64,000 bases of DNA from Tupaia tana (lineage: Eukaryota > Chordata > Mammalia > Scandentia > Tupaiidae): assembly GCA_026018925.1 (NCBI GenBank), contig JAKSZU010000029.1:10639378-10703377 (forward strand), written 5' to 3'. The notes beneath the pieces were generated by a model. The model was not told the origin of the DNA and ran no database searches. It saw nothing but the letters and a program-made list of their open reading frames with translations. The position numbers were made by a program, and so were the translations under genes. This document shows positions 10,826 through 62,030 of this stretch, one piece after another. Positions within the stretch are counted from its first letter, which is position 1; every line of letters starts with the position of its first letter.

Positions 10826-11745
<920 letters not shown>

Positions 11746-12609: not shown

Positions 12610-12874
12610 GGACCAGCAGTTAGCGTAATGGCTATGTCGCTGGACTCCCACGTGGTCGACCGCGGTTCGAGTCCCGGACCCGGCGGCTTAAACTCACGCC
12701 GGGCGCGTGTGCGTGCGTGCCCAAGATCCCGAGAGGAGAATGGAGGAGAAGGGATTGCGGCGTGGCCATCCCCCCTGGGGGGTGATTTCCTGCTTTCTAT
12801 CTCTCTGTCTCTCTCTGTCTGTCTGGCGAGTGCGCGTGCCCTATAGCAAAAACCTCTCCAAAAAAAAAAAAAAA
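12610..12874 (+). mobile_element. Young tRNA-derived SINE, reference copy, 19 bp TSD
   Basis: Best-preserved copy in the window. The head has an A-box-like TAGCGTAATGG (about 12620-12630) and a B box GGTTCGAGTCC (about 12664-12674), the internal RNA polymerase III promoter of tRNA-derived SINEs. A CpG-rich body (CGCCGGGCGCGTGTGCGTGC), a pyrimidine block (TCTGTCTCTCTCTGTCTGTC) and the 3' end GCCCTATAGCAAAAACCTC plus poly-A follow. Target duplication AAAGACTTTACCCATCATG (ending at 12609 and 12890) lies in the L1 3'UTR. The many intact CpGs indicate a recent insertion. Confidence 0.97.
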
Positions 12875-15800
12875 GACTTTACCCATCATGAAATACTTCT
12901 CAGACCAAACCAGTTGATAATACTATACACATCATCAACATGTAATAAGCCATATCTGTGTCCCACTAATGTCATGCCTCTCTATTTGTTTTCTTGCTAT
13001 CTTGCTCTATCCTCTTCTCTTCACACCCCCCATTCCACACAGTATTATTCTCGTTAAGTACTTTCATTGCTTTTATGTCCTCCAATATTTTGCTCTCTAC
13101 CATAGAGTGCGGATAGTCGGTTTATATTAAGTGGATACATACAATATCTTTCTTTCATAGCCTGGCTTACTTCATTCAGCAATAGATGCTCCATATCTTA
13201 CCACTTTCTATCAAATGCCAGGGTCTTGTTATTTTCTATGGCTGAGTAGTATTTTGTAGAGTATATATACCACACTTTTCCAATCCATTCATCAGTTTGT
13301 GGACATTTATGTTGGTTCTATGTCTTGGCAATCGTGAATAATGCTGCAATAAACATTGATGTGCAAGCACTTTTCCGACTGAGCGTTCTCCTGTCCTTTG
13401 GGTAAATACCCAGAAGTGGGATTGCAGGATCAAATGATAGTTGTATTTGTAGATCCTTGAGGAACCTCCATATTGTTCTTCACAGTGGCTGAACCAGTTT
13501 ACATTCCCACCAACAGTGTAGGAGGGTTCCCTTTTCATCACATCCCCATCAACACTTATCACTTTTTATATTGTTAATCTTTGCCATTCTGACAGGGGTT
13601 AGGTGGTATCTCATTGTGGTTTTTATCTGCATCTCCCTTATGATGAAAGATGTTGAGCATTTCCTCATACGCTTTTTGGCTGTTCATATGTCTTCCTTAG
13701 AGAGATTTTCATTCAGCTCATTTTCTCACCTTTTAATTGGGTTAATCATTCTTTTTTGCATAAGACCCTTGAGTTCCCTGTGTATTCTGGTTATCAGTCC
13801 CTTGTCTGAGGCATATTTAGCAAAAATATTTTCCCATTCTGAGGGTTACTGTGTCCTTTGCTGTGTAGAAACTTCTTAGTGTCCCACCTGTATATTTTAG
13901 GGATTATTTCCTGTGCTTTGAGAATCTTATTTAAGAAGTCTTTGCCTACTCCAATGTCTCCCAGAGTTTCCCCAGCATTTTCCACCAGTAGTTTATTGTT
14001 TGAGGTCTTAGGTTCAGATCTTTGATCCATTTTGAGTTGATTGTTGTTAATGGTGAAAGATGGGGGTTCAGTTTCATCTTTCTGCAGGTGGATACCCAGT
14101 TTTTCCAGCACCATTTACTAAAGAGATTTTCCTTTTCCCAATGGATTGACTGATATCCTTTGTCAAAGATCAGTTCTCTGTAAGCTTTGGGGGTTATTTC
14201 TGGGGTCTCTATTCTATTTCATTGGTCCACAAGTCTGTTTTTGTGCCAATACCATGCTGTTTTGATGACCACAGCTTTATAGTATATCTTGTGATCAGGG
14301 AGTGATATCCCTCCTACTCCATTCTTCTTGCACAGGATTGCTTTACAACACGAGGTCTTTTATGATACCAGACAAATTCTATGATTGTCTTTTCTAGATC
14401 TGTGAAGAATATTTTCAGTATTCTCATTGGAATTGCGTTAAACATGTAGATTAATTTGGGTAGAATTGCCATTTTGATTATGTTAATTCTTCCAACCCAG
14501 GAGCATGGGATGTCGTTCCACTTTTTTTATGTCACTTTCAATACCTTTTTTAAGATTTTCATAGTTTTCTTTATAAAGGTCTTTGACTTTCTTAGTTAGG
14601 TTTATCCCTAGGTATCTTATACAACTTGTGGCTACGGTGAAAGGGATTCCTCTCTTCGCTCTACTTCGTTCAACTTGTTCATATATAGAAATGCTATAGA
14701 TTTTTGGATATTGATTTTGTAACCTGCCACTTTACTGTATTCACTTATTACTTCAAGAAGTTTTTTCCTGGAGGCCTTTGGGTCTTCTAAGTATACCATC
14801 ATGTCATCTGCAAATAAAGATATTTTCAACTCTTCTTTGCCTATTTGAATGCCTTTTATATTGTTCTCTTTTCTGATTGCATTAGCTAAGACTTCCAGTA
14901 CTATATTAAAGAGCAATGGAGAAAGTGGGCAGCCTTGCCTAGTACCTGTTTTTAGCAGAAAAGCTTTCAGCATTTCCCCGTTCAGTATAATGCTAGCTGT
15001 AGGCTTTTCATAGATGGCCTTTCTTGCATTCAAAAATGACCTTTCTATACCAATCTTACTGAGGGTCTTAATCATAGAAAGGACATTGTATTTTATCAAA
15101 TGGTTTCTCCGCATCAATTGAAATGATCATATGGTTTTTGTCTTTCTTTGTGTTAATGTGGTGTATTACATTTATGGTCTTGCATGTGTTGAACCTCCCT
15201 TGCATCCCTGGTATAAAGCTTACCTGGTCGTGATGAATAATCTTTGTTATATGTTCTTGGATACGATTTGCGAGTATCTTGTTGAGAATTTTTGCAACTA
15301 TATTCATCAATGATATTGGTCTGTAGTTTTCCTTTTTTGGCATGTCCTTATCTGATTTGGGGATGAGGATGATGGAGGCTTCATAAAATGAATTTGGAAG
15401 GCTTCCTTCCTTTTGAATCTTCAGAAATAATTTTAGTAGGATAGGGGTTAACTCTTCCTTAAATGTTTTGTAGAATTCAGACGTGAAGCCATCTGGACCT
15501 GGGCATTTCTTTGTTGGGAGCTTATTTATTATTGATTCAATCTCCTGGCTTGTTATGGGTCTATTGAGGTTCTGTATGTCCTCCTGATTCAATTTTGGTA
15601 GATTATATGCATCCAGGAATTTGTCCATCTCCTCCAAGTTATCTTGTTTGTTGGCATATAGTCGCTCATAGTATCCTCTTATTATATTTTGTATTTCTGC
15701 TATGTCTGTTGTAGTATTGCCTGTTTCATCACATATTTTATTAATCTGGTTTCTTTCTTTCTTTCTTCTTCTTGATCATTTTAGCCAATGGTGTGTCGAT

Positions 15801-16172
15801 TTTGTTAATCTTTTCAAAGTACCAGCTTTTGCTTTTATTTATTTTCTGTATGGTTCATTTATTTTCTATTTCATTTGTTTCTGCTTGAACCTTTATTATT
15901 TCTTTTCCCCTGACATTTTTGGGGTTTGTTTGTTCTTGTTGTTTTTCTTATCCCCTGAGGCATGATGATAAGTTATCTTTTTGCCATCTTTCCATCCTTT
16001 TCTTATGTTCACTAGTTGCTATGAATTTCCCTCTTATGACTGCTTTTGCTGTGTTCCATAGATTATGGACACTTGTGTACTCATTATCATTTGTTTCTTT
16101 TTTTTATCTTTTATTTTTCTTTCTCAGATCAATTAAATTCACATTTTACATAAAGTTCCCATTATGATGTAT

Positions 16173-16219
<47 letters not shown>

Positions 16220-16500
16220 TTCAACAGAGAACTCTACATTTTTTGGTGTTAAATGTTTCTTTCCTTTGCCTCTCACGCCCACTCTCCACCACCCACTCCC
16301 CGCCCCCCCTGCAGCCTTTGGCATCCACATTCATCCTTTCCACTATCATATCTTCAGATCTTTCTCCCTTTGCCAGAGTGCTGACTTTTTTTTTTATCAT
16401 TGCACATCTTTACAGTGTACAACATGGTTTTTCCAAGCATGAGTACAGTGCACATCAGTCAAGACAATATTACCATATACATTATCAACAGACAACTTTT

Positions 16501-16785
16501 CCTATAAAGTTGCACCTAGCTGTGGCTACATATCCTACTGCAGTCATTGAATAGATATATATTTTATTTCCTGAAACTTTTTTTTTTGTAATAACTCAAT
16601 TTACATTCCTTCCCTAAGCTTCATCACAGCATACAAAATGCAATGTCCCATCCAGTACACACTGCATAGTGACTCAATCATGCACATTACAAAAAAGTTT
16701 CCATTACTAGTTCCTAGAATTACTTCCACCCCTCTTTCTGACCCTCTGTCCCTTCCCACCCTCCTCTCACACCACCTCCAGTGTC
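16501..16785 (-). repeat. Shared HAL1 tail module
   Basis: Reads CCTATAAAGTTGCACCTAGC, then GTAATAACTCAATTTACATT, then a CCAGTACACACTGCATAGTG block and ACCCTCTGTCCCTTCCCACC. The composite element carries the same order at 55724-56031 with scattered mismatches, and the second HAL1 has the sense version from about 31190 (CCAGCTAGGTGCTACTTTAT). Confidence 0.8.
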
Positions 16786-17129
16786 TACAATTGTCCTTCA
16801 TTCCCTTCCCACCCACATTGCATTGATCACACAATTTCCTACATAATCTAACTACTTTCAATGGTGAGTTTACTCATTACTACTAAGAAAACCAGTTTTA
16901 ACTTAACTCAAAGAAGTGCCAAGGAACTTTGCTTAAAGCCAGGAAACAAGTTAGGATTCTGTTCAAATGGTAGGTGCATGAACCTTTCAGTCTCATGTAC
17001 TTTTATCTTCTATTCTGGTTCAATTTTCCTGATTAAATTCTAGGATATAATATTCAACTCCAGACTTGTCCCTATGATTAAGTTGGCCACTTTCATAGTT
17101 TTTGGACTCTTTTTTCCATGCGTCTGTGT

Positions 17130-18131
17130 TTAATTTTCTTGATACAGCACACTCTTGAGAACTTCTTGGAGATCTGGTCTGGTGCTAGTAAATTCTTTCA
17201 GGTTTTGTTTATCTGAGAATGTTCTTGTCTTTTCTTCCCACCTGAAAGATAATCTTGCCGGGTACAGTATTCTTGGCTGAAATTGCTTCTCTCGTAACAC
17301 TTTGAATATATTTTTCCATTCTCTCCTCGCTCGCATTGTTTCCGATGAGAGATCTGCTGTTAGCCTGATGGGATGGCCTTTGTAGGTAACTTGATGTTTT
17401 TCTCTTGCCAATCTTAGTATCTTGTCTTTGTCTGTGGTTTTGGTCAACCTGGCTATAATGTGTCTTGGAGAAGATCTTCTTGGGTTGATTCTATTTGGGG
17501 TCCTTTGTATTTCCTGGTACTGGATCTTCGAATGCCTCTCTAGGTTTGGAAAGTTTTCTTGCAGGATTGCATGGAATAGATTATCAATGCCCTTATGGGT
17601 CTCTTCACCTTCTGGAATGCCAATTATCCGGATGTTTGGACGTTTGATGGTATCCAGTACTTCTCGCATGTCATTCTCAAATTTTTGGGCCATTTTCTCA
17701 GTCTTTGTGGTGGATTTTTCTAAGCCAGCCATTTTCTCTTCTACATCTGAGATTCTATTTTCTGAATGATCTAGTCTGCTTTTAATACTTTCAAGGGAGA
17801 TTTTGACTTCTTGTATTATAGACTTCATCTCTAGCAGTTCCGTTTGAGTCTTTCATAAAGTGTGTAATTCCTCTTTTAGATCTTGCAAGAATTTCCTCAT
17901 CTCCTGGAACTCGGCAACTTCTTTCTCCTTTCTCTTTAGCAGTTCATTATCTCTCTTTTCTTCCATCTCTGTTAGCTTCGACATTATTAATGCTCTAAAT
18001 TCCTTATCAGACATTTCCATGACTTTCACCAAACTGCTTGTGGATGAAGGAGAGTTACTCTTTTCCCTTGGAGGAGAGGTATTTTCTCGTTTTCCCATAG
18101 TTCTCGTGATCCGGCGGTGATGTCTTGTCAT
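17130..18131 (-). pseudogene. HAL1 ORF1 (L1 ORF1p-like), one in-frame stop
   Basis: L1 ORF1p is an RNA-binding chaperone that forms trimers and coats retrotransposon RNA in the cytoplasm. The frame runs 333 codons from MTRHHRRITRTMGKREN to LQEVLKSVLYQEN. It has a basic N-terminus, a Lys/Glu-rich coiled coil (about residues 45-150, EMRKFLQDLKEE, ISLESIKSRLDHSENRIS), the RRM-like core (PNIRIIGIPEGEE) and the C-terminal domain (KHQVTYKGHPIRLTADLS). The only break I see is a TGA near residue 93 (17855-17853), probably CGA to TGA decay; the frame continues in phase after it. L1-a ORF1 is similar but not identical. A functional copy elsewhere is likely. Confidence 0.88.
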
Positions 18132-18393
18132 CTGATGGATGGTGTGTTTCTTTCAAATTCTTGAAGTTAAGCCTCAATGTTCAGGAGCAAGCAGACAGAG
18201 GTGTACTAGAATCTGTTTGCCGTTCTGTTGTGATTGCTGGTGCAAAAGATTCAGTAGATATTGAGTGGAGAGACAAGAAAAAGGAAAATGAAAAAGAGAG
18301 AGAAACAACAACAAAAATAGAAAAAAAAGACAAAAAAAATTACAATTACTGTTCTTTTTCTAAAAAAAAAAAAAAAATCACAAAATAGAAAAC

Positions 18394-18417
18394 CGCGTGG
18401 CGTGCTAGCGCGCCACG
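18394..18417. repeat. 24 bp GC palindrome in the HAL1 5'UTR
   Basis: The 24 bases from GCGTGGCG to CGCCACGC are self-complementary except for one mismatched pair (position 9 T, position 16 G), which would be a G-U wobble in RNA. It sits in A-rich sequence, so the CpG-rich hairpin stands out. L1-b has a decayed counterpart at about 61727-61752 (CACGTGG..GTGTGCCAC). Confidence 0.75.
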
Positions 18418-18659
18418 CAAAATATCTAGTTCCCAGGAGCCATGAGGAATCTTGTGAAGGAAGGGCTCAACTCTCCTGCCTGGTAGGAAGGAACAGAAGG
18501 GATTATTAACAAAACAAAAGGTGGAGCTGAGAGCCAGAGAAAATCTTTACCTTTAAAAAAATCGTAAAAAGGAAAAATTACCAAAAAAAATGAGGAGACA
18601 GGAGGAGAGACAGAGACCTCAGAGACACAGAGACAGAGACAGAAGGCCAGAGGGGCTCC

Positions 18660-18934
18660 CTACCACGTTAGCTTTCCTTGCTGGAGGCTAAATTATGAGT
18701 AGAAAATCTTCATTTCTCCTGTCCCCTGAAATATCTAGTTCCCAGGAGCCATGAGGAATCTTGTGAAGGAAGGGCTCAACTCTCCTGTCATGTTAGCTTT
18801 GCTTGCTGGAGGCTAAATTATGAGTAGAAAATCTTCATTTCTCCTGTCCCCTGAAATATCTAGTTCCCAGGAACCATGAGGAATCTTGTGAAGGAAGGGC
18901 TCAACTCTCCTGCCTGGGAGGAAGGAACAGAAGG
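18660..18934 (-). repeat. HAL1 5'UTR monomers, 125 bp period
   Basis: AAATATCTAGTTCCCAGG occurs at 18729 and 18854 (125 bp apart), and a further copy lies at 18419. The intervening TAGCTTT(C/G)CTTGCTGGAGG block is at about 18668 and 18790. Near-identical units indicate recent homogenisation. They lie at the 5' end of the HAL1, where tandem monomers act as promoters in mouse L1. Confidence 0.85.
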
Positions 18935-19865
18935 TCATTATCATTTGTTTCTATAAATTTTTTTTTAGCCTTGATTTCTTCAGTAGTGAAGAAGTCATTC
19001 AGAAGTAAATTGTTCAGTTTCCATATGTTCGTGTATTTTTGGGGTTGTTTCTTGAAATTAATTTTGAGTTTAATTCCATCATGGTCAGAGAAGATGTTGG
19101 ATACAGTTTCTATGCCTTTGAATCTGTAAAGACTTGATTTGTGTCCTAACATATGATCAATCTTTGAAAAGGTTCCATGCTGGGGTGAGAAAAATGTATA
19201 TGTTGTGAATGTAGGGTGGAAAGTTCTATAGATATCTGTCAAGCCCATTCGATTTATAGTATCATTTAAGTCCTGTATCTCTCTATTTATTTTCTGTCTA
19301 GAAGATCTGTCTAAAGTAGATAATGGGGTGTTGAGATCTCCAACAATTATAGTATTTCTCCCTATCTCTACTTTTAGCTCCAGCAGTCTTTCCTTCACGT
19401 ATTTAGGTGCACCTCAGTTCGGTGTGTAGATATTTATAAGCATTATGTCTTCTTGCTGGATTACCCCATTTACTATTATATAATGCCCTTCTTTGTCTCT
19501 TCTTACAGTCTTTGTCTTTAACTCTACTTTGTCTGAGACCCCTATTGCTACTCCAGCCCTTTTTTGATTTCCATTTGCATGGAATATCTTTTTCCAGCCC
19601 TTTACTTTTAGTCTATGTATGTCTTTATCCATACGGTGAGTTTCTTGTAGGCAAGAGATAGAGGGTTTCTGGTTTTTTTCTTTTTTTTTTTTTTTATCTT
19701 TTTTTTTTTTTTTTTTATCCATTCGGCCAATCTATGTCTCTTAATTGGAGAATTTAATCCATTGACATTCAATGTAATTATCGATATTTCTGTACCTGAT
19801 CCTATCATTAAGTAAGCCATTTTAATGGTTGCCTTATATTCTCGTGTAACTGTCTGTCTGATTTG

Positions 19866-28924: not shown

Positions 28925-29345
28925 TTAAAATTGAAAATTTTGTCTTCTGCCCAGACTTCACCCTCCTGGCCCCAAGATCTAGTAGGAAAGGCCAATCACA
29001 AGCCATCTACATGTGGATTCTGAGTGACCCCTTTCAGAGACTAGGACAAATAAAGATTTTCTGCCAAGACTTCACCTGTCTGACCACAAGTTCTAGTAAG
29101 AAAGGTCAATATGTAGAAAAGGTCCATCAGAAGCCATCTACATTTGAGCTCTGAGTGGCCCCTTTCAAAGACTAGGACAACTGAAGATCTTCTGTCCAGA
29201 CTTCACCCTCCTGACCCTAAGATCTAGTTGGAAAGGCCAATCATAAGCCATCTACATGTGAGCTCTGAGTGGCCCCTTTCAGAGATTAGGACAACTGAAG
29301 ATTTTCTGCCCTGACTTTACCCTTCTGACCTTAAGATATAGTAGG
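28925..29345 (+). repeat. HAL1 5'UTR monomers, about 114-131 bp
   Basis: TTCTG(C/T)CCA(A)GACTT recurs near 28945, 29059, 29190 and 29304 (114, 131, 114 bp). The 131 bp unit has a 17 bp insertion near 29107. The unit is homologous to the 122 bp array at 290-612. Confidence 0.85.
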
Positions 29346-30418
29346 GTCAGAGTAATCCTCAATTGCCATGGAATCTGCTGCATAAAGGGAGAAAAATGGA
29401 ACTGCAAAGAGATTGCAGAAGATTTCCTGCATGCCTCTGAATGGTCAGATTTAACTCCAAAGATTAGAAAAAAAAAAAAAGTATAATCTATTAAATGACG
29501 AGAAACCACTACAGAAGCACAAGTAATATGAGAAGCCAAGAAAATATCTCTCCCCCAAAGGAAAAAATAACTCCTCATCCTCCACATACAATACAATGGA
29601 ACTCGTGAAAATATTAGATAAAGAATTTAGAATATTCATAGTGACAAAGCTAACAGGGATGTAAAAAAAGAGAAGCAGCAAACTCCAGAAGATTCAGGAG
29701 AAAAGATACAATGAGTTCCAGGAGGTGAGAAAGTTCTTGCATAATCTAAAAGAGGAAATGTACACCATGAAAGAGAATCAAATGGAATTGTCAGAGATGA
29801 AGGCTGTACTACAAGAAATCAAAACCTCCCTTGAAAGTATTAAAAGTAGATTAGATCATGCAGAAAATTGAATCTCAGATGTGGAAGACAGAATCTGTGT
29901 CCTAGAAAAAATTTACCAAAAAGACAGAAAATAACCCCTCCCCAAATGAGAATAACATGCAAGAAATATTTGATACCATTAAACACTCAAACATCCAGAT
30001 AATTGGTATCCCAAAGGCAAAGAAATTAATAAAGACATTGATAATCTAATACATGAAACCCTGTAAGAAAACTTCCCAAACCTAAAGAGACATTCAAATT
30101 TCCAGACCCAAGAAATACAAAGGACCACATATAGAATCAACCCATGAAGATATTCTCCAAGGCACATCATAGCCAGATTGACCAAAACCACAGGCAGAGA
30201 CAAGATAGTAAAATTGGCAAGAGAGAAATGTCAAGTTACTTTTAAAGAATATCCCATCAGGCTAATATCTGACCACTCATTGGAAACAATGTAAGCAAGG
30301 AAACAATAGGAAAATATATTCAAAATGTTAAGTGAAAATCCATTTCAACCAAGAGTACTGTGCCCTGCAAGATGACCCTTCATATGGGAATAAAAGATAA
30401 AAAAACTTTTTTAGATAG

Positions 30419-30660
30419 GGACCAGCAGTAGCGTAATGGCTATGTCGCTGGACTCCCATGTAGTCAGCCATGATTGGAGTCCCGGACGCGGTGGCTTAAA
30501 ACTCACACTGGGCGCGTGTGCATGTGTGCCCAAGATCCCGAGAGGAGAATGGAGAAGGGATTGTGGCGTGGCCATCCTCCCTGGCGGGTGATTTCTCGCT
30601 TTCTGTCTCTCTGTCTCTGTCTGTCTGGCAAACGCATGTGCCCAATAGCAAAAAAAAAAA
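30419..30660 (+). mobile_element. tRNA-derived SINE in the second HAL1
   Basis: GGGACCAGCAGTAGCGTAAT head, CCGAGAGGAGAATGG body and GCCCAATAGCAAAAA 3' end with poly-A. CpG-rich, relatively young. Confidence 0.92.
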
Positions 30661-31702
30661 AGAAAGAAAAAAAAAACTTTTCCAAAAAAACATTTTCAGA
30701 TAATAAAACCTGAAATAATCTACCAGCACCAGACCAGAGCTCCAAGAAGTTCTGAAGGGAATGCTATATCGGGAAAACTAAAGCCAGAAATTAGAGTACA
30801 AAAACCAACCAAAGGAATGGCCAACTTAATGAGAGGGACAAGTCTGAAAAGATCAATGATAATGTTGAATATTAACTTTCACAATTTAAACAGAAAGATT
30901 GGACCACAGGAACACTGAAAATTCAACAGAAAAGAGATTAATTACATAAGATTGAACTGGTGAGATAGAATTTTATTACATTTGACTAAAAAACATACTG
31001 ATTTTCTTACATGCTTTGTTTTCCAGATCTAAGAATTTTTGTCTTCTCTTGAACTGTTGATAGTTTTCTACCTACTGTTTGAACTGAATCCTAACCTTTT
31101 TCCTGGCTTTAAGCCTTAAGAAAACATTTTTTAAATTTTTGATCTATTAAAACTAAAGCTGTTTATCTTAAAATTAAAAATGCATAAAAATATACCTATT
31201 AATGACCATAGTAAGATATATAGACCCAGCTAGGTGCTACTTTATAGTAAGTTCATTTTACTCACTGAGGTTTTTGCCTAAAGTCAGACATGTGTTCATA
31301 TACATGTATATATCAGCTGCACTTGCTATTAAAAGTATTTAGATTAATTAAGATCTTTTGTGAATCAAAAAGTGTGAAAAAACAAAAGGCATACAAAGCA
31401 ACTATAGATACCAGAGACAGTGTGAGAGGAGAGTGGGAAATGGCAGAGGGTAAGAGGTAGGGAATCAAGGAGGGATAAAAAAGCAAAATATATAAGAAAC
31501 AAGAAGTGGAAAATTATTTGTTGATGATAACACATATAGCAGTATCCTTGATTAAGTCAATATACAGTGTATTCTGGATGAAAAAATCTCATTTTGTATA
31601 TTGTCATGATTTACAGTGAATGAATGTAAATAAATTTAAAATAAAATATAAATTTTAAAAAGTGGAAAAAAATCCAAAATTTTAAAAATACCAGCCAATC
31701 TT

Positions 31703-32164: not shown

Positions 32165-33095
32165 CTATTGATATTTATATGTTGAAACCTCAGAATGCCT
32201 AATTCTCTTGTTCTTTAAACTCTTGAAAGAGTTCTTATCAGGTCTTATCAAAATAATGTAGCACTTGGGAGCAAAGATACAGCCTAAGAGCCCTGCACTA
32301 GAGGCTAAGATGGAGAAGACCTCCACCACCACCATGAACTTCCCCTTGGTGCTGTGGTAGACAGGGAGGAAGGTGACCCAGACACTGCAGAACACCAGCA
32401 TGCTGAATGTGAGGAACTTGGCTTCATTGAATGTGTCAGGCAGGATTCTGGCCAAAAAAGCTACAGTGAAGCTCCCAAGGGCCAAGATGCCCAGGTATCC
32501 CAGGACAGAGTAGAAGGCAATGACTGAGCCTTTATTACACACAATAATGAGGTTTCTAGGCTCAGAGTGTAAATCTATGTCAATGAAAGGGGGAGAGGTT
32601 CCCAACCAGATTGCACAGACAATCACTTGAATCAGAGAGCAAATGGGAATGACAGAGTTAGAAGCTCCTGATACCAACAACCATCTCACTGTTCCAGGCT
32701 TTGTGGCCTTGAATGCTAGAATAACGGTAATGGTTTTGGCCAAAACAGTGGAAACAGCAACAGTGAACACAAGTGCAAATGTAACTTGTCTGAGGATGCA
32801 GGTAGCTGTGCCAGGACGACCAATGAAGAGCAAAGAACAGAGAAAACACAGGAGAATGGAGGTGAGCAAAATGATGCTCAGTGCCCAATTATTGGCCTTG
32901 ACTATGGGAGTATCTTGGTGCTTCAGAAAGCACCCAAAACTGCAGCTGTCACCACAGAGAAGAACAGAGCCATGCTGGTCAGAGTAATCCCCAAAGAGTC
33001 CTCAAAGGCCAAGAATGTCACCATCTTGGGGAGGCAGTGATTCTTCTCATTGTTTGGATACTCCTGAGCTGGGCACTGGGTACACTGCTGTGCAT
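32165..33095 (-). CDS. V2R exon 6: seven-transmembrane domain, one frameshift
   Basis: The acceptor TTTTTCTCCAG precedes ATGCACAGCAG at 33095. It starts with the end of the Cys-rich linker ([20 protein letters not shown]), then TM1 (about 33000-32930). The frame is lost near 32926-32930, where GCTTTCTGAAGC replaces the expected GTG AAG, a one-base loss. From 32869 the other frame is open for 234 codons through TM2-TM7, including the family signatures [20 protein letters not shown] and [11 protein letters not shown] and the terminal [14 protein letters not shown]. The stop is at 32165. Loop Cys and TM lengths look normal. The single break could be a real mutation or an assembly error. Confidence 0.92.
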
Positions 33096-41849: not shown

Positions 41850-42317
41850 TGTTAGGCCAAGTTAGCATAATCACCACCATGTTAGGGAATGCTGGGGCAA
41901 GTTAGCTTAATTGCAACCCTGTTAATTCTTCAAGGACGGAGCCCACTTTGTTAGGGCCTCAAGGACGGGAAGCAGGAGTCTGGGAACTCTCAGATAAGTA
42001 GAAAACGGGAGAGCCCAGCACCTCCGAGGCAAGGTCATCCAGACCCTTAGCTGAGAGCCCTTATCTAGACCTGAGCAGGTGGTGATAGCTGGACCCTCAC
42101 TTCTCATACCCCCTCCTTTGTATGTGTTACATTCTATGAAAAATCCTGAACTATAAAAGATCCCTTTATCTTAGGCTCGGGGTTCTTGTGAAGGCCCGCT
42201 GCTACGGGCAGGAACTTAGACCCCAGCTAGCTGGAAAAATAAAAACCTCTTTTGCAGTTGCATTGTCATAGTCTTTTCTGTGTCTCCATCGGTTGGACCG
42301 ATCTCTGGACCCTTACA
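41850..42317 (+). mobile_element. Solo LTR, ERV1-like (468 bp), beside V2R exon 3
   Basis: Begins TGTTAGGCCAAG and ends TGGACCCTTACA with a 4 bp target duplication GTAC (41846-41849 and 42318-42321), as expected for class I (gamma-type) elements. TATA-like CTATAAAAGATC lies near 42150 and AATAAAAACC near 42237. The AAGTTAGC(A/T)TAAT block is duplicated at 41858 and 41890. It is a fossil without an internal part. Its end is only 37 bp from the V2R exon 3 donor, on the opposite strand. Confidence 0.88.
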
Positions 42318-42354
42318 GTACTAGATACACTTTATATTTTTGGAGGACACTAAC

Positions 42355-43188
42355 CTGCCAGGGAAGAAGTATAACGTGGTCTGCATCTTCTGGTGATCTC
42401 ACTTCTATTTTCTCTAAAAGCATTTTATGGAGGACTTGAGCCACTGCATGCACAGCATTATAGATAAAATAGCTAAAATAAGATGTTGTCATCATGTCAA
42501 AATTTTCCCAAAACTTTAAGGAAGAATTTGGTGGGCAATCTCCAATTTTATCATATAGTGACCCAGCAAATGAGCAGTCAAAAATATCAATCCAAAATTT
42601 AGTGAAGTAAAAGTCCCCTGCATATTGGTAAGGCTTAAGTGTCTCAAGAAATTGTTTGAAGCCAGGAATTTTCTTCTTCTTGTTTGCAAATGAGAGGCTT
42701 CCATGAAAAGAGTGAAGCATTTTACTGAAATAAGAGAAAACTAACTTCCACTGTGCAGAATAGGGATTTCCAACTATCCACACTTTCCCTGAGATTAAGT
42801 AGAATCCTTCCACATAGTGCAAGGTCACAAAACTCCCTAGATCACCAAATAGTATGTATACATTTGCAGATGAAACTGCATTTGAATAATGAAACTGCAT
42901 TTGCATAACGAAATGTATATCAATTATACTATAAAGGCCTGTAGCAACAGGGAGGGTTTTTGTAAAGGCCACACAGATATCTTTCTTCAACCTCTCATTT
43001 TTTAGATCCTGAAGGAACCGCATTCCTTTCATGTCAGAAGATGTGAAGACTGCTACCCATGTCCAGCCAAAATGCAACAACAACCAGATGATTCCATAGA
43101 CCACAGGGCCGTCTTCGGGGGCCATCTGATAAAGTGATGGAAATTGTTCTTTATCACTTAGGATGGGGTCAAAAGGACCATATGTGAC
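42355..43188 (-). CDS. V2R exon 3: flytrap ligand-binding domain
   Basis: 834 bp (278 codons, phase 0 both ends), the family's usual large exon. The polypyrimidine acceptor TTATTTTCTTATTCAG precedes 43188; the donor is CAG|GTTAGT after 42355. It starts VTYGPFDPILSDKEQFPSLY and contains GWTWVAVF (lobe 2 core), a DSFHGSLSFANKK-type segment (SFHGSLSFANKKKKIPGFKQ), CPPNSSLKFWENFDMM and the end YNAVHAVAQVLHKMLLEKIE..LLPWQ. All are diagnostic of V2R. No stop or frameshift. It would bind the peptide ligand together with the missing exon 2. Confidence 0.95.
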
Positions 43189-43479
43189 CTGAATAAGAAA
43201 ATAAGAAAATTATTCTCTACTTGAGAGCACATGAAAAGAAATACTGGATGAAGAGGAAAAACTACTGTAAAAGATAACCAAGTTCTTTTATTCAGGGCCT
43301 AAAAAATCATGTTTTGCAGGCACATTGCTTTTAGGAACAAACAAGTGATGAGTCCTGATTAATAGTATTACAGGCATCCAAGAAAATGTGTAAGGGTAAT
43401 AGGAAAGTCCTTTTTTGCAGTGGAAACTAAAGAAAACACAAACATTATGAAGACAGTGCATCATCATGTGTGTTTTCTG

Positions 43480-53150: not shown

Positions 53151-55174
53151 TAATACATAAATTAAATAAATAATTCTTTTTTTGAGATAAATTTATATTT
53201 TTGACTTCTCTTGAAAACTCAAGTGATGTTAGAATACTGGACTTTTCAGTCTTCCCTACCTGTCCTGCCTTACTCATTTCCAATTCCAACTTGTACTTTG
53301 CTGACAATTTTTAAAATTTTTATTATCATCATAATCTTCTTTATATTACATTGGATTACATATAACTTTACAGTGTATTACATTGCTTTTTCACAAGGGA
53401 ATGCCATGCATGTCAGTCAATACAGAGACATTAATCTCCCCACTTCAGCATTCAATATCTTTTCTAGGTTTTTCCCAATCATATTATTATTATTCTCATT
53501 ATTTTTTTAAAACAGTCAATCACTATTTCTCATTTTGCTTGTAAAAAGACTTTACCCATCATGAAATACTTCTCAGACCAATCCAGTTGATAATACTATA
53601 CATGTCATCATCAACAGGTAATAAGCCATATCTGTTTCTCACTAACATCTTACCTCTCTATTGTTCTCTTGCTATCTTTCTCTATCCTCTTCTCCTCACC
53701 CCCTCCTATTCCACACTGTCCTATTCTCGTTAAATACCTTCACTGCTTTTATGTCCTCCAATTTTTCGCTCTCTACCATAGAGTGCGGATAGTCGGTATA
53801 TATTGAGTGGATACATACAATATCTTTCTTTCATAGCCTGGCTTACTTCACTCAGCAATAGATCCTCCATATCTGACCACTTTATATCAAATGCCAGGGT
53901 CTTGTTATTTTTTATGGCTGAGTAGTATTCCATAGAGTATATATACCACACTTTTCCAATCCATTCAACAGTTTGTGGACATTTAGGTTGGTCCCATGTC
54001 TTGGCAATTGTGAATAATGCTGCAATAAACATTGATGTGCAAGCACTTTTCCGACTGAGTGTTCTCCTGTCTTTTGGGTAAATACCCAGAAATGGGATTG
54101 CTGGATCAAATAGTAGTTCTATTTGTAGATCTTTGAGGAACCTCCATATTGTTCTCCACAGTGATTGAACTAGTTTACATTCCCACCAAGAGTGTAGGAG
54201 GGTTCCCTTTTCACCACACCCCCACCAACACTTATCATTTTTTATATTCTTCATCTTTGCCATTCTGACAGGGGTTAGGTGGTATCTCATTGTGGTTTTT
54301 ATCTGCATCTCCCTTATGATGAGGGATGTTGAGCATTTCCTCATATGTTTTCTGGCTGTTCATATGTCTCCCTTAGAGATATTCTTGTTCAGCTCATTTT
54401 TCCATCTTTTAATTGGGTTAATCATTTTTTTTTGCATAAGGCATTGAGTTCCCTGTGTATTCTGGTTATCAGTCCCTTGTCTGAGGCATATTTAACAAAA
54501 ATGTTTTCCCATTCTGAGAATTGTCGGTTCACACTTGTTACTGAATCCTTTGCTGTGCAGAAACTTCTTAGTCTAATATAGTCCCACTTGTCTATTTTAG
54601 GGATTATTGCCTGTGCTTTGGGAGTCTTATTTATGAAGTCTTTTCCTACTCCAATGTCTCCCAGTTTCCCCAGCATTTTCCACCAGTAGTTTTATTGTTT
54701 GAGGTCTTAGGTTTAGATCTTTGATCCATTTTGAGTTGATTGTTGTTAATGGTGAAAGATGGGGGTTCAGTTTCATCTTTCTGCAGGTGGATACCCAGTT
54801 TTTCCAGCACCATTTACTAAAGAGATTTTCCTTTTCCCAATGGATTGACTGATATCCTTTGTTAAAAATAAGTTGACTGTAAGCTTTGGGGGTTATTTCT
54901 GGGGTCTGTATTCTATTCCATTCTTCCACATGTCTGTTTTTATGCCAATACCAAGCTGTTTTGATGACCACAGCTTTATAGTTTATCTTCAGATCAGAGA
55001 GTGATATGTCTCCTACTCCATTCTTCTTGCACAGGATTGCTTTTGCATTATGAGGTTTTTGTGATTCCAGACAAATTCTATGATTATCTTTTCTAGATCT
55101 GTGAAGAATATTTCTGCTATTTTGATTGGAATTGCATTAAACATGTAGATTAATTTGGGTAGAATTACAATTTT

Positions 55175-55770
55175 TTTAAATATATTTTAATTTATTTTAT
55201 ACATTCAATTATTATACAGTTAGCTAGTAAAGTGAATTTTACAGCATGAAAGCATTTCACACAAGTCCACTTGGGGATACAATAACATTTTCAGCACAGA
55301 TAATAATCCATTTCTGTCTCATAAAATTTTTTTTTCTTGTAAAAAACTTTACTCAACATGAAATACTTCTCTAACCTGTCCAGTTGAGAATACCATACAC
55401 GTCATTATCAACAGGTAATAAACCATATCTGAATCCCACTAATGTTATGCCTATTCGTTCTCTTGCTATCCTTCTCCATACTCCTCTCTTCTCCTGTCCC
55501 ATTCCACATTGCCTCCCCCCCCATCCTTGATTCCCTATCTCCCACCCTCAGCCATCTCCCATTCTCCTTCCATGCTGTCTCTGGTATCTAAGTTTGCCCT
55601 CTATACTGTTTTTCCCCCACACCTTATTGAATCGCCACCAACTCTAAGCAATCCAAATGCCCTCATAGCAAACACAGGTGAATCACACATTTCCATGAAC
55701 ACAAGTCCAACTCTACGCATCCTATAAATTAGCACCTAACTGTAGCTACATGTCCCCCTATGGTCATTGA

Positions 55771-55811
<41 letters not shown>

Positions 55812-56031
55812 TTTCCCCCCCGAAATTTCTTTTCTTTTCTTTTTTTTTTTTGTAATTCGATTAACATTCCTTCCCTCAGCATCATCACATCATACAAAAT
55901 GCAATCTCACATCCAGTACATACTGCACAGTGATTCAATCATGCCCATTACAAAAAAAAAAAAATTTCCATTACTAGTTCCTAGAATCACTTCCACCCTG
56001 CTTTCTGACCCTCTGTCCCTTCCCACCCTCC
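55175..56031 (-). repeat. HAL1-derived 3' tail of the composite element
   Basis: 55724-56031 matches 16501-16785 of the HAL1 insertion. 55270-55720 matches the sense HAL1 tail at 39990-40250 and 31240-31440 (GTGTTCATGGAAATGTG-like, TAGATACCAGAGACAGCATG). 55340-55510 resembles the L1 3'UTR at 12880-13040. A (TA)n lies at 55774-55808. The junction with the captured segment is sharp: after CCTTCCCACCCTCC at about 56031 homology to the HAL1 stops. Confidence 0.82.
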
Positions 56032-56313
56032 TTAACAATAGGGAACATAGATTCTGTTCAGGGTTGGATTAAGAGTGGGTCTTGTACAGTTCCGCAAATG
56101 TAGGTGAGTCTCCATGTAATACCGTTGCAAGCGGTTTTGGTAAGCAGAGATGATTATCAGTTGATGCAGCACAGCATCTATCTTGTGACCACCGGGAATG
56201 GTGTTGTGGGGATCCATAGCGTGAGCCATCCTCGGGTATCTGGCTTCCTTAAGAATGGTGGAGTAGATCTTGTTTTTCCCTGAGGTAATGTAGGGCTGGT
56301 AACCATCATCTTC
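56032..56313 (-). CDS. Captured open reading frame of unknown origin
   Basis: 94 codons open from 56313 to a TAA at 56034-56032, which falls exactly on the junction with the HAL1 tail. It begins EDDGYQPYITSGKNKIYSTI, continues EARYPRMAHAMDPHNTIPGG and HKIDAVLHQLIIISAYQNRL, and ends LNRIYVPYC. Composition is that of an ordinary folded protein, not of repeats or L1. I do not recognise the family. It looks like the 3' coding end of a host transcript captured with its stop codon. Upstream (56320-56436) another frame is open, so an older frame continued there. It is probably not expressed as protein now. Confidence 0.6.
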   Translation of the reverse strand, partial: EDDGYQPYITSGKNKIYSTILKEARYPRMAHAMDPHNTIPGGHKIDAVLHQLIIISAYQNRLQRYYMETHLHLRNCTRPTLNPTLNRIYVPYC

Positions 56314-56439
56314 TCATTGTCCATAGGTTGAGAAAATCCTCCTATACAATACATTTCTCAAATTGGTTTAAGACAGCTAAAGTTTCCCTCTGTTGCTTAT
56401 AGTTGCAAGTTCTTGATCCTTGTCTTCGGCTTCAGCCTG

Positions 56440-57194
56440 CCGCCCGTGGTCGGCGGCCACGCTCAGGCACAGGGGCCACGTGCCAGCCCGGCGGCCGTGT
56501 GCAGGCACAGGCCCGGTGGCCACGCGCTGTCCCGGCGGCCACATGCTGGCTCGGGGGCCACGTGCAGGCCCGGCGGCTACACGCAGGCCCGGTGGCCACA
56601 CGCAGACCCAGGTCCGGTGACCACACACGGACCCGGCGGCCACGCGTAGGCCCGGGGGCCACGCTCAGGCTCGGCGGCCACGCTCAGGCCCGGCGGCCAT
56701 GTGCAGGCCCGACGGCCACGCTCAGACCCAGGGGCCTCGCACAGGCCCGGGGGCCACACGCATTTCTGGCGGCCACGTGCAGGCCCAGGGGCCACGTGCA
56801 GGCCCAGCGGCCACGTGTAGGTAACGGTCCAGCTGCCACACTCAGGCCCGGCGGCCATGCTCAGACCCGGGGGCCACGCGCAGGCCTGGTGGTCACGCCC
56901 AGACCCGGCGGCCACGCACCGGCACAGGCCCGGCGGCCATGCGCAGGCCCGGCGGCCACGCACAAGCCCGGGGGCCACACCCAGGACTGGCGGCCACGCC
57001 CAGGCCCCGTACCACAGGCAGGCCCAGCGGCCATGCCTAGGCGCAGGCCTGGCAGCCTCGCGCTGGCACAGGCCCGGCAGTCACACTCAGGCCCGGCAGC
57101 CACATGCAGGCACAGGCCCGGCGGCCACGCTCAGGCCCAGGGGCCAAGTGCAGGCCCGGCGGCCACACGTAGGCACAGGCCCGGCGGCCGCGCG
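56440..57194 (-). repeat. 19 bp GC-rich VNTR
   Basis: About 35-40 imperfect copies of a 19 bp unit (plus strand CACGCGCAGGCCCGGCGGC). Variants carry an extra GGCACAG-type insertion. Every unit has several CpGs, in a genome region otherwise poor in CpG. The long open frames here are artefacts of the stop-free repeat. Confidence 0.95.
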
Positions 57195-57271
57195 TCATCG
57201 CTGGAGAGGTGGCTGGGGCTGGGCATCATAGGCCATGGAACGCGAAGCGGCACCAGCCCAGCAGGGGCCGG
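57195..57271 (-). other. Unique spacer between the two VNTRs
   Basis: About 77 bp without repeat structure (CATCGCTGGAGAGGTGGCTG, GGCCATGGAACGCGAAGCGG, AGCAGGGGCCGG). It could be the remnant of an original promoter or leader. Confidence 0.7.
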
Positions 57272-58011
57272 CGCCCAGAGCCCCCATGCACGCGCGGTGC
57301 CCAGAGCACCCGGGCATGCGCGGCGCCCAGAGGCCCAGAGCCCCCGCGCACTCGCGGCGGCCAGGGGCCCAGAGGCCCAGAGCCCCCGTGCACGCGTGGC
57401 ACCCAGAGGCCCAGAGCCCCCGCGCACACGCGGCGCCCAGAGGCTCAGAGCCCCCGCGCACGTGCGGTGCCTAGAGGCCCAGAGCCCCCACGCACGCGCG
57501 GCACCCAGAGGCCCAGAGCCCCCACGCACATGCGGTGCCTAGAGGCCCAGAGCCCCCGTGCACGCGTGGCGCCCAGGGGTCCAGAGGCCCAGAGAGGCCC
57601 ATGTGGGGCACCCAGGGGCCCAGAGGCCCAGAGCCCGCGAGCACGCGCGGCGCCCAGAGCCCAGAGCCCCCCGCGCACACGCGGCGCCCAGAGGCCCAGA
57701 GGCCCAGAGCCCCCGTGCACGCGCGGCGCCCAGGGACCCAGAGGCCCTGAGCCCCCGCGCATGTGCGGCGCCCAGGGGTCCAGAGCCCCGCGCATGTGGG
57801 GCACCCAGGGGCCCAGAGGCCCAGAGCCCGCGAGCACGCGCGGCGCCCAGAGGCCCAGAGCCCCAACGCACACGCGGCACCCAGGGGCCCAGAGGCCCAG
57901 AGCCCCTGCGCACGCGTGGCGCCCAGAAGCCTGAGCCCCCATGCACACGCGGCGCCCAGGGGCCCAGAGGCCCAGAGCCCCCGGCCAGGGGCCCAGAGGC
58001 CCAGAGCCCCC
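57272..58011 (-). repeat. 34 bp GC-rich VNTR
   Basis: About 20 copies of a 34 bp unit (plus strand CCCAGAGGCCCAGAGCCCCC then GCGCACGCGCGGCG), some with an added GGGGCCCAGAGG. Three perfectly phased units are seen at 57403-57505. On the minus (element sense) strand each unit has three G-runs (GGGGG, GGG, GGG), so G-quadruplexes are possible. Confidence 0.95.
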
Positions 58012-60516
58012 GTAGAATTACAATTTTGATAATGTTAATTCTTTCAATCCAGGAGGATGGGATGTCCTTACACTTTTTTATGTCACTTTCGATATCTTTT
58101 TTAAGATTTTCATAGTTTTCTTTATAAAGGTCTTTGACTTTCTTAGTTAGGTTTATCCCTAGGTATCTTATACAACTTGTGGCTACAGTGAAAGGGATTC
58201 CTTTCTTCAGCTCTACTTTGTTCAACTTGTTCATATATAGAAATGCTATAAATTTTTGGATATTGATTTTGTAACCCACCGCTTTACTGTATTCACTTAT
58301 TACTTCAAGAAGTTTTTTTCATGAAGACCTTTGGGTCTTCTAAGTATACCATCATGTCATCTGAGAATAAAGATATTTTCAACTCTTCTTTGTCTATTCG
58401 AATGCCTTTTATATTGTTCACTTCTCTTATTGCATTAGCTAAGACTTCCAGTACTATATTAAAGAGTAGTGGAGAAAGTGGGCAGCCTTGCCTAGGACCC
58501 ATTTTTAGTGGAAAGGCTTGCAGCTTTTCCCCATTCAGGATAATGTTAGCTGTAGGTTTTTCATAGATGGCTTTTATTGTGTTAAGAAATGACCCTTCTA
58601 TACCAATCTTACTGATGGTCTTAATCATAAAAGGATGTTGTATTTTATCAACTACTTTCTCCATATCAATTGAAATGATCATATGGTTTTTATCTTTCTT
58701 TCTGTTAATGTGGTGTATTACATTTATGGTCTTGCATATTTTGAACCACGCTTGCATCCCTGTGATAAAGCCTACCTCGTCGTGGTGAATAATTTTTGTT
58801 ATATGTTGTTGGATATGATTTGCAAGTATCTTGTTGAGATTTTTTGCATCTATATTCATCAATGATATTGGTCTGTAGTTTTCCTTTTTTGGCATGTCCT
58901 TATCTGTTTTGGGGATGAGGATAATGGAGGCCTCATAAAATGAATTGAGAAGGTTTCCTTCCTTTTGACTCTTTAGAAATAATTTTAGAAGGATAGGGGT
59001 TAACTCTTCCTTAAAAGGTTTGTAGAATTCAGATGTGAAGCCATCTGGACCTGGGCTTTCCTTTTTTGGGAGGTTCTTTATTAGTGATTCAATCTCCAGG
59101 CTTGTTATGGGTCTATTCAGGTTCTGTATGTCCTCCTGATTCAATCTTGGTAGATTATATGCATCCAGGAATTTGTCCATCTCCTCCAGGTTATCTTGTT
59201 TGTTGGCATATAGTCGCTCATAGTATCCTCTAATGATATTTTGTATTTCTGCTATGTCTGTTGTAATATTGCCTGTTTCATTGCATATTTGATTAATCTG
59301 GTTTCTTTCTTTCTTCTTCTTGATCAGTCTAGCCAATGGTGTGTCGATCTTGTTAATCTTTTCAAAGAACTAGCTATTGCTTTCATTTATTTTCTGTATG
59401 GTTCATTTATTTACTATTTCATTTATTTCTGCTTGAATCTTTATTATTTCTTTTCGCCTGGCATTTTTGGGGTTTGTTTGTTGTGTTTTTCCAATTCCCT
59501 GAGGCATGATGACAGGTTATCTATTTGCCATCTTTCCATCCTTTTCTTATGCACACTAATTGCTATGAATTTCCGTCTTATGACTACCTTTGGCATTTCC
59601 CATAGATTATGGACACTTGTGTACTCATTATCATTTGTTTCCATAAATTTGATTTCAGACTTAATTTCTTCAGTAGTGAAAAAGTCATTCAGAAGTAGGT
59701 TGTTCAGTTTCCATGTGTTCGTGTATTTTTGGGGTTGTTTCTTGAAATTAATCTTGAGTTTAATTCCATCATGGTCAGAGAAGATGCTGGATACAGTTTC
59801 TATGCCTTTGAATCTGTAAAGGTTTGATTTGTGTCCTAACATATGATCAATCTTTGAAAAGGTTCCATGCCGGGGTGAGAAGAATGTATATGTTGTGGAT
59901 GTAGGGTGGAAAGTTCTATAGATATCTGTCAAGCCCATTCAATTTATAGTATCATTTCGGTCCTGTATCTTTCTATTTATTTTCTGTCTAGAAGATCTGT
60001 CTAAAGTAGATAATGGGGTGTTGAGATCTCCAACAATAATAGTATTTCTTCCTATTTCTCCTTTTAGCTCCAGCAGTCTTTCCTTTGCATATTCAAGTGC
60101 ACTTGAATTGGGTGCATAGATATTTATAAGAGTTATGTCTTCTTGCTGGATTACGCCATTTACTATTATATACTGCTCTTCTTTGTCTCTTCTTACAGTC
60201 TTTGTCTTGAAATCTATTTTGTCTGAGATCACTATCGCTACTTCATCCCTTTTTTGATTTCCATATGCATGGAGTATCTTTTTCCAGTCCTTTACTTTTA
60301 GTCTATGTATGTCTTTATCCATAAGGTGAGTTTCTTGTAGGCAACAGATAGAGTTTTTTTTATTTTTTTCCATTCAGCCAATCTTTGTCTCTTAATTGGA
60401 GAATTTAATCCATTTATATTCAATGTAATTATCGATATTTCCATATCTGATCCTATCATTAAGTGAGACATTTTCTTGGTTGCTTTATGTTCTCATATAA
60501 CTGTCTGTCTGACTTT

Positions 60517-61481
60517 TTAGTTTTCCTGGTATAGTACTCCCTTCAGAACCTCTTGAAAGCTGGTCTGAACTTGGTAAATTCCTTCAAATTTTGTTTACTT
60601 GAGAATGTTTTTATCATTTTTTCCCATATGAAAGATAATTTGCCAGGTATAGTATTTTTGGTTGAAATTGTTTTTCACTCAACACTTTGACTATGCTCCT
60701 CCATGCTTTCCTTGCCTGCATTGCTTCTGCTGAGAGATCCGATGTTAGCCTGATGGGGTGACCTTTGTAAGTAACTTGATGTTTTCCACTTGCCAACTTT
60801 AGTATCTTGCCTTTGTCTGTTGTTTTTGCCAGTCTGGCTATGATGTGCCTTGGAGAGGATCTTCTTGGGTTGATTCTTGTTGGGGTCTCTGTATTTCTTG
60901 GGTCTGGATATTTGAATGACTTTCTAGGCTTGGACAGTTTTCTTCCAGGATGTCATGGAATAAATTATCTAGGCCCTTATTATTTTCTTCCTCTTCTGGA
61001 ATACCAATTATCCAGATGTTGGTACGCTTGATGGTATCCAGTATTCCTGTATATTATCCTCATTTTTCATGGTTGTTTTCTCAGTCTTCTTGATGCTTTT
61101 TTCTAGGTCAGATGTTTTGTCTTCTACATTAGAGATTCGATCTTCTGCCTGGTCTAACCTACTTTTAATACTTTCAAGGGACATTTTGATTTCCTGTATC
61201 ACATTGTTCAATCCTAGAAGTTCCATCTGGTTCTTGTTTAAGGTATCCATTTCTTCTTTTAAGTCATGAAAGGACTTCCTCATCTCCTGGAGCTCCTTGT
61301 CTCTTTTCTCTTCCATCTCAGTTAGTTTGGTCACAACAAATATTCTGAATTCCTTATCAGACATGTCCACCACATCCATTGTGTTGACTGTGGGTGATGT
61401 AGGCTTGATGATTTCCCTTGAGGAAGAGGCCTTTTGTTGGTTGCTCATATTTCTTGAGCCTCTATGATTGTTCATAGTCAT
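60517..61481 (-). pseudogene. L1-b ORF1, frameshifted
   Basis: N-terminal half open (61481-61008): MTMNNHRGSRNMSNQQKASS, coiled coil with MRKSFHDLKEEMDTLNKNQM and RLDQAEDRISNVEDKTSDLE. A frameshift near 61045 (after MKNEDNIQ) diverts it. The C-terminal domain is legible downstream (KHQVTYKGHPIRLTSDLSAE at about 60780). The TAA is at 60519-60517. It was the L1 RNA-binding chaperone. Confidence 0.88.
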
Positions 61482-62030
61482 CAGGTAATCTATATGTTGC
61501 TTCCTATCTTATTAAAGGTATCTGAGTGCTAAAAGTTGTACAGGATTAGAAAATTGATGATTTCCCTTATGGTTGACCTACTTGTTGCTCACAATTACCA
61601 TTAAGAGTTGCCACTAGTCCTGGATGGCCCAAAGTCCTCCCTGTTTCTAAGGAGTGGTGAGCCTCAAACTGATCTAATAAACAACACCTAAAGAGCAAAG
61701 AATAACAAAACAACAAAAAAAAGAAATCACGTGGTGCCCGTTGTGTGCCACAGACTATTCAAATCACTAAAATTCAGAGAGCCCAAAAGCAAGTGGTAAA
61801 GGACCAGAGGATGCGTAACAGGTCCAGAGCAGTAGGGCCTGCAGCCTCAGGCTGCTTGGTATCCGGAACTTCTGTCCGGCTCTATCTGGTTTGCAGGTGG
61901 GGTGGGGTGCAAGTTCATCTTAAAGCCGCATGCAACCAACGGGGGTCCAAGGAGGAGTAGGGGTGAGGATTCGTGAAGGTCCAGGGCAGCGGTCGAGCAT
62001 GTAGCCTTAGGCCACCTGGTGTCCGCCCCC
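61482..62030 (-). promoter_or_regulatory. L1-b 5'UTR
   Basis: Homologous to 20835-21326 (shared TGGATGGCCCAAAGTCCTCC and CTAAGGAGTGGTGAGCCTC). It retains about 40 bp that L1-a lacks, including a CACGTGG motif (E-box core) near 61729. Not monomeric. Confidence 0.7.

Follow-up and report, generated by a model that had tools for sequence, protein, structure and literature searches.

The insert that splits the L1 element designated L1-b raises the question whether it is a copy of a composite retrotransposon family of the SVA kind, or a chimera that arose by itself from a single RNA. For the window (the whole stretch of DNA that was analysed, 64 kb) the answer leans towards the latter: one chimeric RNA, started from a host promoter and running into a 5'-truncated HAL1, would have been retrocopied into L1-b by an L1-type reaction.

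Insert borders and target site: The insert (2,837 bp, 55175-58011; sense strand minus) lies within the minus-strand L1-b and is bounded by the exact 16-bp duplication GTAGAATTACAATTTT (55159-55174 and 58012-58027). The longest exact match was 13 among 3,000 pairs of model 130-nt flanks and also 13 among 2,587 real pairs taken within L1-b; the exact 16-bp target duplications in L1-b, which the original prediction had placed around one unit of 2.84 kb, were thus found as an exact match beyond both chance controls. The target on the sense strand, ATTATC/AAAATTG, i.e. TC/AAAA, is close to the L1 endonuclease consensus TT/AAAA (PMC5322556, available text). The related element L1-a (92.5% identity to L1-b over 3,051 ungapped columns, insert excluded) carries the uninterrupted site at the same position as the insert-bearing site of L1-b. 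Three hallmarks of L1-type insertion are accordingly present, namely the 16-bp duplication, the TC/AAAA target and the A-rich end; a run of seven A is common to the insert end and the duplication. The coordinates of all parts are collected in Table 1.

Table 1. Positions in the window of the insert parts, the host element and the elements used for comparison.
Feature	Position	Strand	Remarks
Target site duplication, copy adjoining the 3' (A-rich) end of the insert	55159..55174	.	exact 16-bp match to 58012-58027
A-rich 3' end	55175..55199	-	AATAAA starting 22 nt and ATTAAA 17 nt from the end
HAL1-type 3' UTR, 5'-truncated, 858 bp	55175..56032	-	55842-56032: 87.6% identity with the HAL1 inserted in L1-a; 55175-55514: alignment to the 3' UTR of L1-b
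Unique segment, ~0.42 kb	56033..56450	-	45% GC; 93-codon open frame; BLAST against the remaining window (E ≤ 1e-3) without match
VNTR 1, 19-bp GC-rich units	56451..57194 (~57194)	-	tandem repeats and composition
Spacer between VNTR 1 and VNTR 2, ~100 bp	57195..57298	-	tandem repeats and composition
VNTR 2, 34-bp GC-rich units, 5' end of the insert	57299..58011 (array called to 58012)	-	tandem repeats and composition
Target site duplication, copy adjoining the 5' end of the insert	58012..58027	.	sense target ATTATC/AAAATTG
Host element L1-b, split by the insert	53290..61508	-	limits approximate; low end set by eye
Paralogous uninterrupted target site in L1-a	14460..14475	-	2 of 16 bases differ
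HAL1 insertion in L1-a, comparison element	16099..18934	-	own 18-bp target duplication TCATTATCATTTGTTTCT at 16081-16098 and 18935-18952

Other features of the window: Receptor exons with PF01094 and PF00003 were located at 42313-43209 (minus) and 32165-33001 (minus); the former matches vomeronasal type-2 receptors, the best named relatives being those of tree shrew (56%) and rabbit (53%). An abundant SINE of ~260 bp occurs at 12610-12869 and in many other places; it is tRNA-like by eye, ARAGORN found no tRNA, and the copy at 12610-12869, situated in the L1-a 3' UTR, has a 21-bp target duplication. The stretch ~11300-11650 (plus) resembles, on visual inspection, a histone H3 retrocopy.

GC-rich VNTRs: On the sense strand the insert consists of a 34-bp VNTR, a spacer of ~100 bp, a 19-bp VNTR, a unique segment of 0.42 kb and an 858-bp HAL1-type 3' UTR, in this order. 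That two different GC-rich VNTRs are present, as had been claimed, was borne out by the unit lengths (19 and 34 bp) and by the composition: GC 0.77 and 0.79, window 0.37; CpG observed/expected 0.69 over both VNTRs, window 0.25. A simple quadruplex pattern matched the sense strand of the insert only, at 8 places (6 in VNTR 2, 2 in the tail, 0 in VNTR 1). VNTR 2 contains a higher-order duplication, a 137-nt stretch (57597-57733 and 57790-57926) repeated 193 bp away at 90% identity, which indicates that the array was altered by segment duplication; at its outer side VNTR 2 touches the 5' duplication with nothing between. BLAST gave no second copy of the VNTRs or of the unique segment in the 64-kb window. 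Of 7,984 candidates scored against the 379-aa frame made up of the segment end, VNTR 1 and part of VNTR 2, 0 were relatives at E ≤ 0.001, and neither viral contigs nor prokaryote genome contigs contained an exact match to the 21-base unit of VNTR 2; the contig results say little on copy number, since both collections are viral and prokaryotic. Twin priming (L1 inversion) was set aside, the segment and both VNTRs being devoid of BLAST similarity to the L1 of the window on either strand.

Unique segment: The original prediction took this part for a captured coding segment, and the results do not sustain that claim. Its longest open frame (93 codons) is near chance: frames of at least 93 codons were obtained in 5.6% (sense strand, P about 0.06) and 11.2% (either strand, P 0.11) of 2,000 model sequences with the segment's own neighbour frequencies. 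No Pfam match was obtained at E ≤ 1 for 7 of the 53 stop-to-stop frames listed, nor at E ≤ 10 for 4 frames; 0 proteins of the collection shared three 5-residue words with the 93-aa frame; PDB (E ≤ 10) yielded nothing for the 93-aa and 59-aa frames, whose 2 and 11 pattern-matching stretches, respectively, in viral contigs gave 0 confirmed relatives. Rfam showed no match inside the segment. In local alignment with the remaining window the segment scored 47 at best, against a maximum of 43 in 20 shuffles (scored on one strand only); this slight excess was judged to be without meaning, and BLAST gave no match. The segment may be non-coding, or it may come from a gene absent from the collections searched.

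Comparison HAL1 elements: The insertion in L1-a listed in Table 1 contains the ORF1 domains PF02994 and PF17490 and showed no similarity to the L1 reverse transcriptase, endonuclease and ORF2 C-terminal pieces tried; it was assigned on these grounds to HAL1, a truncated L1 that encodes ORF1 only (PMC5753468, PMC5322556; available text of both). At its 5' end (18.4-18.9 kb) it has 125-bp tandem monomers, 97-98% alike. A HAL1-like element at ~28943-31700 (plus) also begins with tandem monomers (114-131 bp), which do not match those at 18.4-18.9 kb; no target duplication was found for it (best 10 bp). Two copies with non-matching 5' monomers suggest that exchange of the 5' array may occur in HAL1 here. 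A 122-bp array at 302-612 belongs to the same monomer family as the HAL1-like element.

HAL1-type tail: Alignment of the tail 55842-56032 with 16578-16765 gave 87.6% identity, and that of 55463-56032 with the same HAL1 copy gave 79.4% over 486 ungapped columns; 53533-53718 matched at 81%, and five further stretches of the window matched as well, so that the announced homology to two other loci was found and exceeded. Against 8 references, picked because BLAST had pointed to them, the tail scored above all 100 shuffles in 7 cases; the stretch 46.6-47.2 kb did not. The best local alignments were those of 55463-56032 to the HAL1 copy at 16.5 kb and of 55175-55514 to the L1-b 3' UTR; the HAL1-like element at 31 kb aligned to 55283-55807, spanning the changeover between the two. 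From these alignments the tail is read as one continuous HAL1 3' UTR, the end of which would be common to L1. A tail of HAL1 type with an A-rich end had been predicted; the HAL1 3' UTR and the poly(A) signals agree with this, and the description needs correction for the last ~340 bp, which are common to HAL1 and L1 3' UTRs. A 53-base HAL1 tail pattern occurs at exactly two places in the window and had no match in viral contigs. Similarity to ORF1 was absent from 55175-58011 (tblastn, three ORF1 pieces). Folding of the tail RNA was better than in all 20 of its shuffled versions (z -3.4); this was put down to paired T/A runs and an AT repeat, and no reading was drawn from it.

Inner junction: The match with the HAL1 copy at 16.5 kb extends as far as 56032 and breaks off there abruptly; the sharp junction predicted at 56031 was thus located one base away, at 56032/56033. 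Neither a second duplication nor an A-run was detected at this point: within the last 40 nt of the segment no match to either the 5' flank or the tail start exceeds 5 nt, and no A-run exceeds 2. With no second duplication or A-tail at the join, the insert is most simply explained, by a wide margin, as the product of one retrotransposition event. A join by splicing was also weighed for 56032/56033; upstream of it the HAL1 sequence shows no acceptor-like tract (by simple count, 6 pyrimidines in 20 nt in the single HAL1 comparison copy).

Proposed origin: The chimeric RNA would most likely have started from a promoter or first exon of the host that bears a GC-rich (CpG-rich) VNTR; the transcript would have run, or been spliced, across the unique segment (0.42 kb) and on into a HAL1 truncated at its 5' side, with polyadenylation at the HAL1 3' end; L1 proteins would then have nicked the TC/AAAA target and reverse transcribed the RNA in trans. 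The CpG-rich VNTR at the 5' end would fit a CpG-island promoter or first exon, with transcription starting inside the VNTR, and the 5' part as a whole would be of host origin. This proposal draws on the 16-bp duplication, the TC/AAAA target, the uninterrupted L1-a site, the poly(A) signals, the sharp HAL1 end, the VNTR abutting the duplication, the absence of a second duplication or A-run from the inner junction and the human precedents of L1 chimeras with 5'-fused host transcripts inside one duplication (PMC13174262, available text). Several points stand against it. The searches of Pfam, PDB, the protein collection and Rfam, and that with the 379-aa frame, gave no host source for the 5' part; the CpG richness may follow simply from a GC-rich repeat; the comparison copy lacks an acceptor-like tract upstream of the HAL1 junction; and the tail is truncated, whereas the L1 parts of human mRNA chimeras are predominantly near full length (PMC13174262, available text). 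Copy number is probably one or very low; only one copy could be examined, and hence the insert may be a one-off.

The same layout admits a possible, if doubtful, reading as a member of a non-autonomous composite retrotransposon family, a functional counterpart of SVA and LAVA with GC-rich VNTRs at the 5' end, an L1-recognised HAL1 3' end and many copies moved in trans. The succession of VNTR, unique part, retroelement 3' end, A-rich end and target duplication resembles SVA/LAVA; the 34-bp unit of VNTR 2 lies within the published range of 30-50 bp (PMC4432496, available text), the G runs of quadruplex type stand on the sense strand, and the 137-nt duplication (90%) gives VNTR 2 a higher order. 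This reading has to contend with the single copy in the 64-kb window and with the head of the insert, where neither a CT-hexamer array nor an Alu/7SL-like region was found: no hexamer array was among the tandem repeats of the insert, and Rfam gave no 7SL/SRP match in 55100-58100 (Alu was checked only through the 7SL/SRP model); a 5'-truncated copy could lack such a head.

The join itself can be accounted for in two ways: a transcript that reads on into a 5'-truncated HAL1 of the genome would give it, and so would a template switch. Template switching, or RNA ligation, implies that reverse transcription of a HAL1 RNA jumped to (or that this RNA was ligated with) an unrelated VNTR-bearing RNA, with a bipartite one-off chimera as the product; such an origin is improbable here. 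It would agree with a sharp join inside the HAL1 3' UTR devoid of an acceptor signal, and L1 chimeras formed by these mechanisms are described, their L1 part being often truncated, as in this insert (PMC13174262, available text). The partners named in the same text are, however, abundant structured RNAs (U6, U3, 28S rRNA and others) and Alu, and a GC-rich partner of 2 kb would presumably be unusual. In the window all Rfam families stayed below their gathering scores; the matches up to E = 1 in 55100-58100 were 4, all to miRNA models (E 0.094 to 0.57), lying in the insert and far below gathering scores. Read-through is therefore modestly preferred over a switch, the partners named in that text being abundant structured RNAs and Alu, none of which was shown by Rfam here. 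A small-RNA partner (U6, 7SL, tRNA, 5S or similar) was discarded in view of the Rfam results; ARAGORN found no tRNA gene in the window.

The insert could also represent a further exchange of the 5' array in HAL1, i.e. a HAL1 derivative in which the 5' monomers were swapped for GC-rich repeats and ORF1 was lost; this is very unlikely. The differing 5' tandem arrays of HAL1 in the window (125 bp at 16.1-18.9 kb; 114-131 bp at ~28.9-31.7 kb) speak for such exchange, to which are opposed the absence of ORF1 similarity from the insert and the absence of BLAST similarity between the VNTRs or the segment and any other part of the window, among them the 5' regions of L1/HAL1; no copy with ORF1 plus GC-rich repeats was seen in the window. 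Two independent events, a truncated HAL1 first and the VNTRs with the segment later, would suit parts of different composition with a sharp border, and can be given hardly any credence in view of the VNTR that abuts the duplication exactly and of the last 40 nt of the segment (matches to the 5' flank or tail start of at most 5 nt, A-run of at most 2).

Meaning of the insert: Even if there is only this copy, the insert means that a HAL1 3' end carried ~2 kb of foreign, mostly GC-rich tandem-repeat sequence to a new site, and such a copy is a plausible first step towards a family. That a non-hominoid mammal independently evolved a multi-copy composite of the SVA kind, with two GC-rich VNTRs at the 5' end and a HAL1 3' UTR as the L1-recognised end, is unlikely; if true, evolution would have arrived repeatedly and convergently at a GC-rich, CpG-rich VNTR as a means of being carried by L1. 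Were the unit a family in another mammal, the GC-rich VNTR architecture would have arisen twice, and the question would then be which common property (G-rich sense strand, CpG-rich promoter or RNA structure) makes a good passenger of L1.

Comparison with VNTR composites: SVA, LAVA, PVA and FVA are described as hominoid-specific, a related SVA2 being listed also from macaque; a 5' CT-hexamer repeat and an Alu-like region are common to all four hominoid families, and their central VNTR is built of GC-rich units of 30-50 bp (PMC4432496, as far as its available text goes). The insert resembles these families in having a GC-rich VNTR with units of comparable length (34 bp in VNTR 2), a 3' end derived from a retroelement, an A-rich end and an L1-type duplication. 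Unlike them, it has two different VNTRs, which are 5'-terminal rather than central, and its 3' end is HAL1; the CT-hexamer and the Alu-like head were not found. The original prediction of an SVA-like element thus stands in part for the layout and fails for membership, given the missing CT-hexamer/Alu-like head, the 5'-terminal VNTRs and the HAL1 3' end. The literature titles and abstract openings listed, drawn largely from outside the subscription literature, contained no VNTR composite with a HAL1 tail and none of any kind outside primates.

Comparison with HAL1 and L1 chimeras: The insert is like HAL1 in its 3' UTR, poly(A) end and target duplication, and unlike it in the absence of ORF1 and in the different 5' part. 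For human, chimeras are catalogued in which host transcripts are fused to the 5' side of L1 and one duplication surrounds both; 17 of the cases involve an mRNA or lncRNA, and a co-opted host promoter drove two of these, which have one sequence in common. The L1 parts of U6/Alu chimeras tend to be truncated, and these chimeras are attributed by the authors to ligation or template switching; splice sites are present at the junction in some, not all, L1-host RNA chimeras (all PMC13174262, available text). As in L1 5' chimeras and 5' transductions, foreign sequence stands 5' of an L1-type 3' part, with one duplication, an endonuclease-like target and an A-rich end; unlike in L1 5' chimeras, the 3' part is a truncated HAL1, the 5' part is a GC-rich tandem repeat and the join has no splice signal. 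The known kind to which the insert comes nearest is the L1-mobilised chimera, and on present evidence the insert is a variant of such a chimera.
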